DNA from: a virus
Reading direction: 5' to 3' (one strand)
DNA length: 64,000 nucleotides
IMG/VR virus record: IMGVR_UViG_3300042905_002991
Span: 19,390-83,389 of that record
Of this stretch, positions 19,064-62,749 are shown in pieces. Every line of letters begins with the position of its first letter. The first letter of the stretch is position 1. The notes beneath the pieces were generated by a model that saw only the letters and a list, made by a program, of their open reading frames with translations, made no database searches and was not told the DNA's origin. Position numbers and translations under genes: made by a program.

Positions 19064-20066
19064 AAAAATTATTTGTTATAATTTTTTCTAGATAGGCTTT
19101 ATGTTTTTCATGAACGATTTCATCTGAGAATCTTTCTCCCCAAAATCTACAATCGCGAGGATTAATCATTACACCGCTTTCAACATTAATCATGGCTTGA
19201 ATCAACGATTTAAAATCATTAACTCTATATCCAGTTTTTCCTTCAAATACGGTTTCTGGAAATGCACCCCAATCTGTTGTAATTACTGGAGTGCCGCACA
19301 AATTTGCTTCAATAACCATATTTCCAAATGGCTCAACATAATAAGTTAGACCTAAAAGTGCCTTTGCTCTACCAAGCAATTCATTTCTCTTTTTCGGTTC
19401 TAGATAACCAACCAATTCAACGTGGTCTGGAATTTTATCGTATCCTAAATGTTTTAAATCTGTTGCTGGTCCTGCGATTACAAGTTTACGATTAAGTTGT
19501 TGCGTCGCTTGAATTGCCAAATGTATACCCTTTTCTGGAACAACTCTGCCCATGCAAACATAGTAGTCATGTTTTTTAGATTGATAATCGAATTCAGAAA
19601 TAGTAAATGGATTTGGAATTACTGTATCATACCAAGAAGGGTTGTTTACCATATTTCGCTCGCCATAAAACATATGCATGTGAGCGTATGATGTGAATGC
19701 TTTATATTTGGCAAACACACAGCTGGTTCTATAACCAATTGATGGCTCAAGAGATTGACAATCTGAATTTAAATCGCATGCCAGTTGATTTTCTGTGCCA
19801 TAGAAGCAGGCAATAATATCACCAGGCGATTTATTCTTTTGTATTGCTTGAGCAGCAGATCGATTGAATTTTTCAAGATCATTATTGTCATGCGCTGCAA
19901 CATCAATATGTCTACAATCAACTGTAGATCCCTCAAGCCCATAATGAATCATTTCAAAATGAGGTGAGAGATGTTTAATGTATTTGTAGGCATGCACGGA
20001 AAATGCTTCCATGCGATCCATTAAACCAGTTGGCTTGGTTGGAATAGCAAGTACATGTATCTTCAT
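19053..20066 (-). CDS. GT4-family glycosyltransferase
   Basis: A retaining glycosyltransferase of the GT-B fold (Glycos_transf_1). The C-terminal half carries the hallmarks VCMGRVVPEKGIHLAIQA, RKLVIAGPA and the E-x7-E motif in EPFGNMVIEANLCGTPVI at about residues 243-260, followed by GAFPETVFEGKTGYRV. The N-terminal domain is less conserved. It is 337 aa, within the usual range for this family. It lies directly downstream of the giant fibre gene and may be translated with the next putative transferase. The acceptor is unknown; the adjacent fibre is a reasonable candidate by context only. Confidence 0.85.
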   Translation of the reverse strand: MKIHVLAIPTKPTGLMDRMEAFSVHAYKYIKHLSPHFEMIHYGLEGSTVDCRHIDVAAHDNNDLEKFNRSAAQAIQKNKSPGDIIACFYGTENQLACDLNSDCQSLEPSIGYRTSCVFAKYKAFTSYAHMHMFYGERNMVNNPSWYDTVIPNPFTISEFDYQSKKHDYYVCMGRVVPEKGIHLAIQATQQLNRKLVIAGPATDLKHLGYDKIPDHVELVGYLEPKKRNELLGRAKALLGLTYYVEPFGNMVIEANLCGTPVITTDWGAFPETVFEGKTGYRVNDFKSLIQAMINVESGVMINPRDCRFWGERFSDEIVHEKHKAYLEKIITNNFYAL

Positions 20067-32330: not shown

Positions 32331-33500
32331 TTATTCAAGTTTAATTACGACTTCCGATCCAGAAGGGGCTGTAACAGGATATGTTGAATTATCTGGGTAA
32401 GTCCAGTAACTTACTGTTGTTGGTGAAATTGGTGTCGCTGGAATTGGACCACCATCAATCACATTACCAACTGCACCGCCAGGTAATGTCACACCAAGAG
32501 CAGAAGCAGAAGCACCAATGTTTCCAGGAGTAAATCCTGTGGCTGGTTGATTTGCAATTGGTTGATTCGCAATTGGATACGCGACATTGTAGTTGGTATT
32601 ATAATTTGTATTATAGTTTGTCGTCCAAGCAGTTATTGGTTGATTCGCCAGTGGCTGAGTTGCGATTGGTTGGTTGGCAATTGGATAAGCAACGTTGTAG
32701 TTCGTATTATAATTGGTATTATAGTTTGTCGTCCAAGCAGTTATAGGCTGGTTTGCAATTGGTTGATTTGCCACTGGTTGATTTGCAACAGGATATGCGA
32801 CGTTATATTCTGTATTGTAATTTGTGAAAAAGAATGCATTTCCTGGTGCAAATTGATGCCAGCATTGAAAGTAAACCCAGTGCCACTGATATTGTAATGG
32901 ATTTGTTTGATCGAATGCAAAGTGCGATGGACATTGAGAGTCGTCGAAGTTGTAACTGGTACTTTGAACATATCCTGGAGGACCAGCTTGGTTTTGATAG
33001 ATACCGTAAGTCCAATATCGATAAGAGTTCACGAAATAAACACCTGGATTATTTCCACCAAACGAGAAGTGTCCAAAACCGAATCCAGCAAATGGATATG
33101 TTACGAAATAGTTCGTATTATAATTGGTATTGTAGTTTGTTGTCCAAGCAGTTGCTGGTTGATTTGCGATTGGACGATTGGCGATTGGTTGATTCGCGAT
33201 TGGGTACGCAACATTATAATTGGTGTTATAGTTTGTATTGTAATTGGTTGTCCAAGCAGTTGCTGGCTGATTCGCCAGTGGCTGATTTGCGATCGGCTGA
33301 TTGGCGATTGGATACGCAACATTATAATTGGTGTTATAGTTTGTCACCCAACCTGCTGTTACTGGAGAGTTTCCAGGAGCACCCTTTCCTGAAACTGTAC
33401 CAACAAAACGACCATATGGGATTGTAACGTTTCCTGGAGAGGTTACGGTAGTCGTTCCTCTCGAAGGTCCAGGGAGCCAAGTTTTATTTAAATCTGACAT
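32331..33500 (-). CDS. Asn/Gln/Tyr-rich repeat fibre protein
   Basis: A 389-aa protein with strongly periodic sequence: tetrapeptides TNYN in runs followed by NVAYP and pentapeptides of the form IANQP (also LANQP, VANQP), joined by ATAWT or ITAWT. About five such blocks flank an aromatic central segment (GFGFGHFSFGGNNPGVYFVN, then QYQWHWVYFQCWHQFAPGN) that could bind carbohydrate. The pentapeptides do not fit the A(D/N)Lxx rule of pentapeptide-repeat proteins. The N/Q/Y content suggests a beta-solenoid or amyloid-like stalk. It has its own TATAAATA promoter and lies downstream of the tailspike, so an adhesin role is inferred. I do not recognise a named family. Confidence 0.7.
   Translation of the reverse strand: MSDLNKTWLPGPSRGTTTVTSPGNVTIPYGRFVGTVSGKGAPGNSPVTAGWVTNYNTNYNVAYPIANQPIANQPLANQPATAWTTNYNTNYNTNYNVAYPIANQPIANRPIANQPATAWTTNYNTNYNTNYFVTYPFAGFGFGHFSFGGNNPGVYFVNSYRYWTYGIYQNQAGPPGYVQSTSYNFDDSQCPSHFAFDQTNPLQYQWHWVYFQCWHQFAPGNAFFFTNYNTEYNVAYPVANQPVANQPIANQPITAWTTNYNTNYNTNYNVAYPIANQPIATQPLANQPITAWTTNYNTNYNTNYNVAYPIANQPIANQPATGFTPGNIGASASALGVTLPGGAVGNVIDGGPIPATPISPTTVSYWTYPDNSTYPVTAPSGSEVVIKLE
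32537..33348 (-). repeat. Short tandem repeats encoding TNYN and IANQP units
   Basis: DNA repeats of 12 and 15 bp (TNYN and IANQP units) form about five blocks on either side of a unique stretch at about 32830-33110. Third-position differences show that the units are not all recent copies, but many are close enough to recombine. Confidence 0.8.
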
Positions 33501-60073: not shown

Positions 60074-60790
60074 ATGGCTTTACCAAAAATTGATTTGCCA
60101 ATTTATAGTGTGCACCTTAAATCAGAAAACAAAGATGTACGCTTCAGACCTTTTGTTGTAAAAGAAGAAAAACTTCTTATTATGGCATTAGAATCTAACG
60201 AACATAAGATGATTATTGATACGATTAAACAAGTCATCAATAATTGTTTAGTGGAAGAAATTGATCTTGATAGATTGCCAATGTTCGAAGTTGAGAATAT
60301 TTTTTTAAATCTTCGAGCAAGATCAATGGGTGAAAAGGTAGAAATCACCTATGTCTGTCAAAACGTTGTTGATGAAAGAAAGTGTGGTGCTGAAATGGAT
60401 TTGGAGGTGGACCTTCTTCAAGTTACAACGAAGATGGGAAATGTGAATCCAGTAGTGCAGTTGACTGACAATATTGGCATTAAGATGAAATATCCTACTT
60501 TCGAAACTGCTAAGAAGATTCAGTTAGAAAGAGATTTAGATTTGGTAATTAAGATCATTCGTGAGTGCACGGAATTTATTTTTGATAAAGAGCAAACTTA
60601 TCCTGTGAGTGATGTTGATGAAAAAGAATTTGACGATTTCATTAACAGTTTGAGTCAAGAACAATTTGGAAGAATTAAGAACTTTTTTGATAACATTCCA
60701 AAATTGAGTTATACAGGAAAGGTTGAATGTCCAAGATGTAAGAAAGAACATGATGTTGTTCTGGAGGGTATTCTAGATTTTTTCGAATAA
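60074..60790 (+). CDS. gp26: Baseplate hub assembly protein gp26
   Basis: Hub assembly protein of the T4 base plate family (PF12322-type), 238 aa against 208 in T4. Conserved parts are DVRFRPFVVKEEKLLIMALE and IFLNLRARSMGEKVEITYVC. Cysteines C-x8-C near residue 95 (CQNVVDERKC) and C-x2-C near 219 (CPRCKKEH) could bind zinc. The gene ends with a T TTT TTC heptamer two codons before its TAA; a -1 shift there would continue into the 72-aa ORF that overlaps as TAATG. Its place before the tape measure is that of tail assembly chaperones in other phages. The ribosome site is GAGGAA. Confidence 0.85.
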   Translation: MALPKIDLPIYSVHLKSENKDVRFRPFVVKEEKLLIMALESNEHKMIIDTIKQVINNCLVEEIDLDRLPMFEVENIFLNLRARSMGEKVEITYVCQNVVDERKCGAEMDLEVDLLQVTTKMGNVNPVVQLTDNIGIKMKYPTFETAKKIQLERDLDLVIKIIRECTEFIFDKEQTYPVSDVDEKEFDDFINSLSQEQFGRIKNFFDNIPKLSYTGKVECPRCKKEHDVVLEGILDFFE

Positions 60791-60827
60791 TGCTTCGTGA
60801 AGAGAGTTTGAGGAGTTACTTCCTCAA
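60763..60827 (+). promoter_or_regulatory. Candidate programmed -1 ribosomal frameshift signal
   Basis: Three elements in a row: GGAGGG (60763-60768), then 9 nt, then the heptamer T TTT TTC (60778-60784) in the gp26 frame. After a -1 slip the next codons are CGA, ATA, then ATG of the 72-aa ORF at 60790, so the frames join exactly. A perfect 7-bp hairpin (TTGAGGA / TCCTCAA, 60808-60827) follows, though 23 nt from the slippery site is farther than usual. The GGAGGG is also too far from the ATG (21 nt) to be its normal ribosome site. Confidence 0.6.
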
Positions 60828-61008
60828 CAACTTCTCGTTGATGCAGTATCATAATTATTCTTTACATGAATTAGAATCGATGCTGCCATGGGAAAGAAAG
60901 ACTTATATTTCTCTAGTCGCGAAGCACGTTGAAGAAGAAAACGAAAGAATACGACAGCAAAAAGAAAAATCTTCCTCTGATAGAGCAATAAAGAAACGTA
61001 TGAGATAA
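60790..61008 (+). CDS. Small hub-region protein, gp51-like by position
   Basis: A 72-aa helical protein (FSLMQYHNYSLHELESMLPW, then ERKTYISLVAKHVEEENERI) with a basic tail ending KKRMR. T4 has gp51 beside gp26, but T4 gp51 is 249 aa, so the link is by position only. MLPWERKTY is reminiscent of the second half of G/GT-type tail chaperones and of short proteins in other T4-like phages. It can be made from its own ATG (TAATG overlap with gp26) or as the C-terminal part of a frameshifted gp26 fusion of about 311 aa. Its stop is 1 nt before the tape measure ATG. Confidence 0.6.
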   Translation: MLREESLRSYFLNNFSLMQYHNYSLHELESMLPWERKTYISLVAKHVEEENERIRQQKEKSSSDRAIKKRMR

Positions 61009-61009
61009 A

Positions 61010-62749
61010 ATGGCAAAGAAAACAGATCCAGAAATTGAAGAACTAAAAGAAACAGTTGATCAACTTAAAAAGAAGGTCAAGACTGTAGAATCAGACATCT
61101 ACAGTCCAGAGGCACAGAAGTCATTTAGTGAATACACTGGATCTCGAGAAGAATTTCGCAGAGAAAAGAAACTCCGTGAAATTGCTTCAGGTAAAAAAGA
61201 TACTGCAACATCTCAAACTCTACGTTTTGTTGCCGCAGCAGTTTTTGGGAATAAAGATCTAACTGCAATTGTTAGAGAAAGATTTCAAACAAGATATACA
61301 AAAGAAGAAATCGAACAAGCAAAGAAAACTCTTGAAGAGGAGTTTGGTGTAAAGAAACAAAAAGAGAAAAAGACTCTCTCACCGCAAAGATTAAAGAAAG
61401 AACTTAATGATGCACTTGAGCCAATTAAATCCTCAATCATGGGTTTATCAGTTGCTGTTGATAAGGTAAGTCAAGAAGTCTCATCAACAAATCGTCGTGT
61501 TAAATCTATTGCTGATAATTTAGTCGGAACAATAAATGATGCATTGACAGCACTAGCAAAAGGTAGAGGATCCCTTGAAAAGATTCCAGAACAAATGAAG
61601 CCTTTGTCTGTTGCTGATGAAGAAGGGAAGGAATATCTCTATTATCCAGATGCTCCTACAGGCAGACAATTATATGAGAAAAGTAAGACAGGCACTGCTG
61701 GTAAAATTGCAAGTAAAAAGATTCAAAGAAAATTAGACGCAGAAATCAAACGTCTATCTCGCGAGACTAACTTAAAGCCAGTTCGCTTCACTGGAGGAGA
61801 TCCAGAAGTTGATTCAATTGTAGAACAAATTAAAGTTTTACTTGAAGAAGAAAGTATGTTTCGTAAAAAAGATATGGAATTGCTCGTCAAGGATTTAAAA
61901 GAATCGCTCATTAAAAAACAACCAAACAGCGTCTTCGATTTAGAGGCTGATGAGCAGCAAGCCATTCTCCAAAGAGCCATGGAAAAAGCACTTGATGCAA
62001 CTTTATATGATGCTTTGAAGAGAGTGTTTAGAGATAATCCTGATTTATTGTCAAATAATGGATTTGATTTCCCAACTTTTCTTCCAGGAAGAAACAACAG
62101 AGTCCCAACTCCAACTCCTCCAGTACCAACACCACCTACACCAGATGGTGGAAAAAAGAAAATCCCAGAAAAGATAAAAGATGTTTTTCAAAAAATTCCT
62201 TTACCGCTTCGTGGAAGATTATTGGGTGCTGCAGGTTTATTAGGATTAGCAACAATTCCAACTATGGGTATATTTGACTCTCTTGATTTTAGTTTAAAAG
62301 AATCTGGAAATAAAGCCATTCAGAATATATCAAAGGGGTCTGTTCAAGACATCGCAACAGCAATTCAAGTTCCAAAGTATGGTGCATATACTCTTCAAGA
62401 ATTAGAGAGAATGGCTGTTGATGATCCTTCTCTTAAGATAAAACTTGATAAAGCAAAAGAGATTGCTGGACTGAAACCAATCTCAAAAACGGATTTAAAT
62501 CTTTCTCCACCAAAGCCAGCAGAAGGTCAGCAAATTGTTGACATGAATCAAAAGAGAATTGAAATTCAATCGGCTGATAGAGTTGAGATTCCTTCTCAGA
62601 CAGTAAATCAAATCAACAATACGCAAGTCATTCCTGTGCCTTCTACTAAAAAGAATATTGAAGTGCATAATCAAGAGAACACATTCAATCGTTTATTGGC
62701 TCAAGAGTTCGATCATCCAGCAACATATGCTAATATGAATATGGGATAA
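61010..62749 (+). CDS. Tail tape measure protein, gp29-like
   Basis: A 579-aa protein that probably fixes tail length; T4 gp29 is 590 aa, so the tails should be of similar length if the usual 1.5 Angstrom per residue holds. The N-terminal 350 residues are charged and helical with predicted coiled coil (EELKETVDQLKKKVKTVESD, VAVDKVSQEVSSTNRRVKSI). A Pro/Thr linker at about residues 363-380 precedes a hydrophobic stretch (RGRLLGAAGLLGLATIPTMG) near 402-421, a typical tape-measure membrane-active segment. The C-terminus is polar. It directly follows the gp26 pair. The assignment is by position, size and composition rather than clear identity. Confidence 0.7.
   Translation: MAKKTDPEIEELKETVDQLKKKVKTVESDIYSPEAQKSFSEYTGSREEFRREKKLREIASGKKDTATSQTLRFVAAAVFGNKDLTAIVRERFQTRYTKEEIEQAKKTLEEEFGVKKQKEKKTLSPQRLKKELNDALEPIKSSIMGLSVAVDKVSQEVSSTNRRVKSIADNLVGTINDALTALAKGRGSLEKIPEQMKPLSVADEEGKEYLYYPDAPTGRQLYEKSKTGTAGKIASKKIQRKLDAEIKRLSRETNLKPVRFTGGDPEVDSIVEQIKVLLEEESMFRKKDMELLVKDLKESLIKKQPNSVFDLEADEQQAILQRAMEKALDATLYDALKRVFRDNPDLLSNNGFDFPTFLPGRNNRVPTPTPPVPTPPTPDGGKKKIPEKIKDVFQKIPLPLRGRLLGAAGLLGLATIPTMGIFDSLDFSLKESGNKAIQNISKGSVQDIATAIQVPKYGAYTLQELERMAVDDPSLKIKLDKAKEIAGLKPISKTDLNLSPPKPAEGQQIVDMNQKRIEIQSADRVEIPSQTVNQINNTQVIPVPSTKKNIEVHNQENTFNRLLAQEFDHPATYANMNMG

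Follow-up and report, generated by a model that had tools for sequence, protein, structure and literature searches.

The gene for a gp26-like protein in an uncultured T4-like phage overlaps, at its stop codon, a short open reading frame (ORF) that lies in the -1 frame, and six consecutive Ts precede this junction; the question raised by this locus is whether the two reading frames are expressed as two separate proteins or whether a programmed -1 ribosomal frameshift joins them into a longer form of the first. The locus lies in a stretch of 64,000 nucleotides (i.e., the window), which represents positions 19,390 to 83,389 of IMG/VR virus record IMGVR_UViG_3300042905_002991; the complete record (83,389 bases) contains a single match to PF12322. 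The surrounding genes, which are of the head closure, DNA end protector, gp53, tail tube cap and gp32 types, provide a T4-like setting, and the gene 5' of gp26 is of the tail tube type (phrog_45). In the lambda G/GT and P2 E/E' systems, a -1 frameshift in the tail genes just before the tape measure gene yields a minor long form, and the window resembles both systems in that its candidate shift is found close to the 3' end of a gene that precedes the putative tape measure gene and would likewise yield a minor long form. Lambda G/GT also appears in a figure legend of a review (PMC5009743). The features of the locus are as follows.

60074-60790, + strand: gp26-like gene, putative short tail assembly chaperone (238 aa; PF12322, phrog_150)
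60763-60768, + strand: GGAGGG, candidate Shine-Dalgarno-like stimulator, 9 nt 5' of the heptamer
60778-60784, + strand: slippery heptamer T TTT TTC, candidate site of the -1 slip (from the sequence and its conservation in relatives)
60784-61008, + strand: -1 frame after the slip (CGA ATA ATG ...), 74 codons plus stop, C-terminal part of the proposed 311-aa form
60785-60860, + strand: post-slip region that folds better than its shuffles (z -2.58) and holds a stem at 60808-60827
60788-60790, + strand: 0-frame stop TAA, which closes the short form and overlaps the ATG of the small ORF (TAATG, 60788-60792)
60790-61008, + strand: 72-aa ORF with ATG start, phrog_634 (small gp51-like ORF of cyanophages)
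61010-62749, + strand: 579-aa ORF, putative tape measure gene, assigned by position

As the 579-aa ORF has no Pfam match over the curated cut-off and its best PHROG match has an E-value of 0.011, its probable identity as the tape measure gene comes from its position.

The 3' end of gp26 reads ...CTG GAG GGT ATT CTA GAT TTT TTC GAA TAA TG..., and a first-pass annotation of this DNA had read from it a T TTT TTC heptamer in the gp26 frame, a -1 slip through CGA and ATA into the 72-aa ORF with a fusion of about 311 aa, and a GGAGGG 9 nt upstream of the heptamer. The sequence bears out all three, with 237 plus 74 residues giving a predicted fusion of 311 aa that ends at the stop codon at 61008. The statement that the heptamer lies two codons before the stop is correct if the stop is counted; otherwise, one sense codon (GAA) separates the heptamer from TAA. 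We consider it very probable, from comparative sequence analysis, that the phage uses this -1 slip to make a short and a long form of a tail-building helper protein. Most ribosomes would stop at 60790 and release the 238-aa short form, while a minority would be held by pairing of GGAGGG with the anti-Shine-Dalgarno sequence, perhaps together with structure downstream; in a ribosome held in this way, both tRNAs-Phe would slip back by one base at T TTT TTC, and reading would continue as CGA ATA ATG... to give the 311-aa long form. Lambda G is thought to coat the tape measure protein and the GT extension to recruit the tail tube, and, by analogy, the short form in the window may coat the tape measure protein while the extension of the long form may recruit the tail tube. 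We infer the slipping itself as well as its rate, its stimulators and this division of labour between the two forms.

Open frames of at least 100 codons (both strands, stop to stop) in the window contain 112 in-frame heptamers of the form X XXY YYZ. For only four of these does the -1 frame run at least 30 codons beyond the 0-frame stop, and two of the four have a T6 core; between these two, only the gp26 heptamer sits near its stop, the other being located 66 codons before its stop. The three such heptamers outside gp26 are those at window positions 33382, 32873 (+) and 29570 (-), in open frames that may not be genes.

Conservation was examined in 257 loci, i.e., the window and 256 fetched loci; each IMG/VR fetch took the best 80 of several hundred candidates, so that the sample leans towards the queries. 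Exclusion of 11 T4-type gp51 loci, locus L170 and 15 loci with less than 250 nt downstream left 230 usable loci; certain contigs present under two locus ids were removed from the cluster counts and are still included in the 230 and 257, and three loci that were fetched later (L259, L260 and L262) are outside these counts. An in-frame heptamer, in each case with at least six Ts, was observed within the last 31 nt of gp26 in 224 of the 230 usable loci (171 TTTTTTC, 51 TTTTTTT and 2 TTTTTTA), with the distance from heptamer to stop identical in 206 loci. After clustering at 50% identity, the heptamer is present in 36 of 41 clusters. Comparison with relatives was one of the checks named in the first-pass annotation, and both the heptamer and the continuity of the -1 frame, which in 230/230 usable loci runs through the gp26 stop and stays open for at least 53 codons beyond, are indeed conserved. 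The six usable loci that lack a heptamer at this place are L075 and five distant relatives, which fall with Ackermannviridae (four of the five were included in the tree) and have GTTTTTC, GATTTTC or ACTTTTC. In L075, T TTT TTC is found in frame farther upstream, and the short form has eight residues past the slip site. In the loci that go with Ackermannviridae (L164, L166-L169 and L262), the -1 frame continues past gp26, but the motif (GTTTTTC, GATTTTC, ACTTTTC or GGCTTTC) lacks the tandem heptamer form, which would fit slippage of a single tRNA or the use of a different signal.

A conserved heptamer could also be a by-product of a conserved Phe-Phe end together with AT-rich codon use, with no important second product, and Phe-Phe itself is nearly invariant at the end of gp26. 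We consider this hardly credible since Phe-Phe elsewhere in the ORFs of related loci is encoded as T TTT TTY in only 88 of 650 cases, as compared to the heptamer in 224/230 loci here, and since the -1 frame is open in all 230. The first Phe codon is TTT in 175/175 clusters and has the lowest synonymous variation of 191 columns, although the six of 181 clusters in which no heptamer falls within the last 31 nt were dropped beforehand and the TTT count thus leans towards this result.

The register of the T run bears on a further possibility, i.e., that RNA polymerase slips on the run and that the long form is translated from the altered part of a mixed mRNA population. Polymerase slippage needs no register and is favoured by longer runs. 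With no filter for the heptamer, the first T of the run occupies the third codon position in 176 of 181 clusters, which is the register that two tRNAs need to re-pair and which therefore argues against polymerase slippage; the run is exactly six Ts long in 140/181 clusters (next base C in 139). Runs of seven to nine Ts do occur, in 36/181 clusters, and transcriptional slippage is known in other viruses, according to a review (PMC5009743); nevertheless, the register, the predominance of exactly six Ts and the fact that a Shine-Dalgarno-like element would have no role in such a mechanism make this origin of the long form very unlikely.

Ribosomal slippage at the heptamer predicts that the sequence past the gp26 stop is coding in the -1 frame. 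A profile built from the small ORF matched in 239 of the 257 loci, and every one of these matches (239/239) lies in the -1 frame relative to gp26; seven of them had served as seeds, and one (L179) belongs to a T4-type gp51 gene whose frame is broken. The 18 loci without a profile match include four that are ended by the contig end, ten of the T4 type, and L165, L168, L169 and L170, which have enough sequence and gave no match to the small-ORF profile. Among the usable loci, the downstream domain was found in 227 of 230, always in the -1 frame. For the analyses of start codons, codon variation, stems and common structure, clusters lacking the heptamer within the final 31 nt of gp26 (6/181 at 90% and 5/88 at 70% identity) were dropped, L075 with its more upstream T TTT TTC being one of them. 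Among the 83 clusters that remain at 70% identity, 49 have no ATG in the first 15 post-slip codons and 36 have no ATG, GTG or TTG between the slip and the conserved core, which begins at about codon 14; frameshifting would thus be the natural way to make the downstream domain in these 36 clusters. In 52 start-less loci, variation in the -1 frame past the gp26 stop is 0.35, 0.45 and 0.56 at codon positions 2, 1 and 3, respectively, and this order (2 < 1 < 3) is a coding signature.

These data also bear on the most conventional reading of the locus, in which two separate proteins are made, gp26 ending at TAA, the small ORF being translated by re-initiation at the overlapping ATG, and the T6 run being incidental. 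The small ORF in the window has its own ATG in TAATG, and re-initiation could therefore also make a small product here; TAATG is likewise present, together with the heptamer, in the near relative L015, and Moby, VP-1, K566 and GR28A have annotated small ORFs that begin at an overlap of this type. The near relatives L010, L011, L012 and L016, however, lack the overlapping ATG, while the heptamer is invariant across all six aligned sequences. Together with the 36/83 clusters that offer no start codon before the core and with T4 gp51, which carries both parts as one continuous protein (see below), this makes separate expression an unlikely explanation. The proposed -1 frameshift joining gp26 to the small ORF, as put forward in the first-pass annotation, is thus supported by comparison, and the evidence points to a genuine, highly conserved -1 frameshift signal in what is probably the tail chaperone gene of this T4-like phage. 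Among 15 annotated records of the frameshift type, none has the long form; the second part is given as a separate short gene, often from a late start or overlap, or is absent. The comparison hence corrects an annotation habit through which the long form is missing from such records.

With regard to stimulators, Escherichia coli dnaX has a Shine-Dalgarno-like element approximately 10 nt before the heptamer A AAA AAG, and the window is similar in its upstream element, whereas it differs from dnaX in the heptamer and in having a stem that is farther off and not conserved. GGAGG ending 10 nt before the heptamer was found in 36/83 clusters, with weaker or differently placed motifs in 42 and none of the motifs tried in 5. 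A Leu-Glu-Gly type motif is encoded at this place in 69/83 clusters, and its Glu codon is GAG in 45 of the 69, as compared to 495 of all 1998 Glu codons of these genes (Fisher p 5e-13, with kinship ignored). This codon choice supports the reading of the GGAGGG-type element as a candidate Shine-Dalgarno-like stimulator, the role that had been proposed for it from the window sequence.

The evidence for a downstream element is of a different kind. A hairpin had also been proposed, and the window does contain an 8-bp stem (60808-60827); as a signal, it is not conserved in relatives. The stem begins 23 nt 3' of the heptamer, which is farther than the usual spacing of stimulatory stems, and it was rejected as a stimulator as stems of at least 7 bp are equally frequent in relatives and in their shuffles (0.25 vs. 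0.25). The 75 nt after the slip are more stably folded than shuffled versions of themselves, with a mean z of -1.05 (s.e.m. 0.16, n=83), as compared to 0.00 to -0.65 in four control stretches. RNAalifold found no common downstream structure over 161 loci; like the stem counts, this analysis covered the 161 of 175 clusters in which the heptamer is 13 nt from the end of gp26. In a clade that was delimited around P-SSM2 by protein identity (n=45), the heptamer is followed, at a distance of 5 nt, by an 11-bp stem in which a mean of 9.89 of 11 pairs are formed, as compared to 2.7-5.0 when the stem is slid along the sequence. One pair is clearly compensating (T-A in 23, G-C in 8 and A-T in 6); most pairs hardly vary, and the pairing excess over independence is 0.51 of 11 pairs. 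In a wider clade around P-SSM2 (n=75), the stem is down to 8 pairs, of which 6.11 are paired, and stem searches in two other clades, one around L018 (n=13) and one around L012 (n=15), gave next to no excess over independence. Downstream stems thus appear to be clade-wise at best.

The family relation of both parts is clear from profile searches. The gp26-like protein matches PF12322 over the whole domain (residues 10-238; E 1.4e-61, 208.5 bits, cut-off 24.5) and phrog_150 with E 1.3e-70, while the 72-aa ORF matches phrog_634 (E 1.3e-21) and, weakly, positions 249-281 of phrog_150 (E 5.9e-4), the latter being a hint that both parts may form one protein in some phages. An AlphaFold2 model of gp26, built from 76 sequences, has a pLDDT of 94.6. 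A Foldseek search of the PDB with this model returned no match at E 0.001 or better, HK97 gp13 ranking sixth, and VIA-align comparison of the Foldseek candidates placed 3fgx, 3klu and 2ob9 at Z 8.0, 7.7 and 7.6, respectively, a range in which the tool warns of common arrangements near background, with the next candidates at 4.8 and 2.4. These three alignments have an rmsd of 4.0-4.1 over 84-85 residues, and all three structures are termed phage tail assembly chaperones in PMC9603447. HK97 gp13 (2OB9) resembles the gp26 model over 84 residues within residues 1-85 (Z 7.6, rmsd 4.1), but shares only 6% identity with gp26, which has approximately 150 further residues. Residues ~1-90 of gp26 are thus predicted to adopt the tail assembly chaperone fold. 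The best named matches of the gp26 model in a viral structure library are gp26-like baseplate hub proteins, and sequence searches of the PDB with gp26 and T4 gp51 gave no match at E 1. Position, product architecture and this predicted fold, which is close to HK97 gp13, agree with the suggestion in the first-pass annotation of a kinship to the G/GT and E/E' tail chaperones. The gp26-like protein (window 60074-60787) also contains cysteine pairs, among them a CPRC close to the C terminus, that could be zinc ligands, and CxxC is visible in the consensus of the 76 gp26 relatives as well.

A -1 ribosomal slip that yields a short and a long form of a tail-building protein from one gene has previously been reported in many phages. 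Vladimirov, Gautam and Davidson (2022, Virology 566:9) reportedly identified the tail chaperone genes of T4-like phages. PMC12846349, which cites Vladimirov 2022, describes poly-T slip signals as known in the short-form genes of T4-like phages; the kind of frameshift is thus known. The same text reports that all 56 alleles of the tail chaperone locus of Pseudomonas phage Adele (Vandenendeviridae) have a -1 frame that stays open beyond the stop, and that GTTTTT is conserved; the Adele locus is like the window in its open -1 frame and differs in phage family and slip motif. PMC10885494 states that some T4-like phages have a short gene plus a longer fused gene instead of frameshifting, and our reading is that these probably are genes 26 and 51. 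Among the titles and abstracts listed in literature searches, none dealt with this shift in cyanophages or pelagiphages, and the stimulator analysis and start-codon argument were not found in those portions of the related literature that were available; no priority is claimed. The comparison provides a concrete candidate frameshift signal for the cyanophage and pelagiphage type of T4-like phage, and it ties T4 gp26 and gp51, named hub assembly chaperones, to the short and the long tail chaperone, respectively.

This tie derives from the products of T4 itself. T4 gp51 (249 aa) covers phrog_150 positions 13-280 and matches phrog_634, so that both parts are found in one continuous protein, while T4 gp26 (208 aa) covers phrog_150 positions 14-235 only and has a C terminus (GLKEFFELL) where the short form of the window ends. 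By these matches, T4 carries the putative short form (gp26) and the putative long form (gp51) as two genes, which are located on opposite strands, whereas the window has the frameshift arrangement; comparing the two arrangements offers a way to ask what sets the ratio of short to long form. A tree of 62 proteins separated 46 frameshift-type rows from 16 T4-type rows (8 gp26 and 8 gp51) with support of 98/95 and placed gp51 in one group (100/99), with gp26 not resolved as one group, the root not fixed and long-branch warnings. T TTT TTC is kept in Aeh1 and S13 (Straboviridae outside the T4 branch) and in Vibrio phage K566, and also in Moby. The split in the tree and the heptamer in Aeh1, S13 and K566 fit one replacement by duplication in the T4 branch. 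We therefore lean towards a history in which the -1 frameshift (T TTT TTY with a Shine-Dalgarno-like stimulator and stems that change from clade to clade) is ancestral and in which the T4 branch lost the frameshift once, through duplication into genes 26 (short) and 51 (long), so that in T4 the short-to-long ratio would be set by transcription rather than by the ribosome. A model of a gp51-type protein (L171), built from 6 sequences, has a pLDDT of 81 with a weak C-terminal part, and a second structural comparison with the PDB listed no tail chaperone chain for it. In L179 (positions 2501-2860), the T4-type gp51 frame stops after 120 residues, which could reflect a split gene or a sequence error. 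In the viral structure library, two 'baseplate protein' entries of Klebsiella phage KPV15 (120 aa and 107 aa) match the gp51 model.
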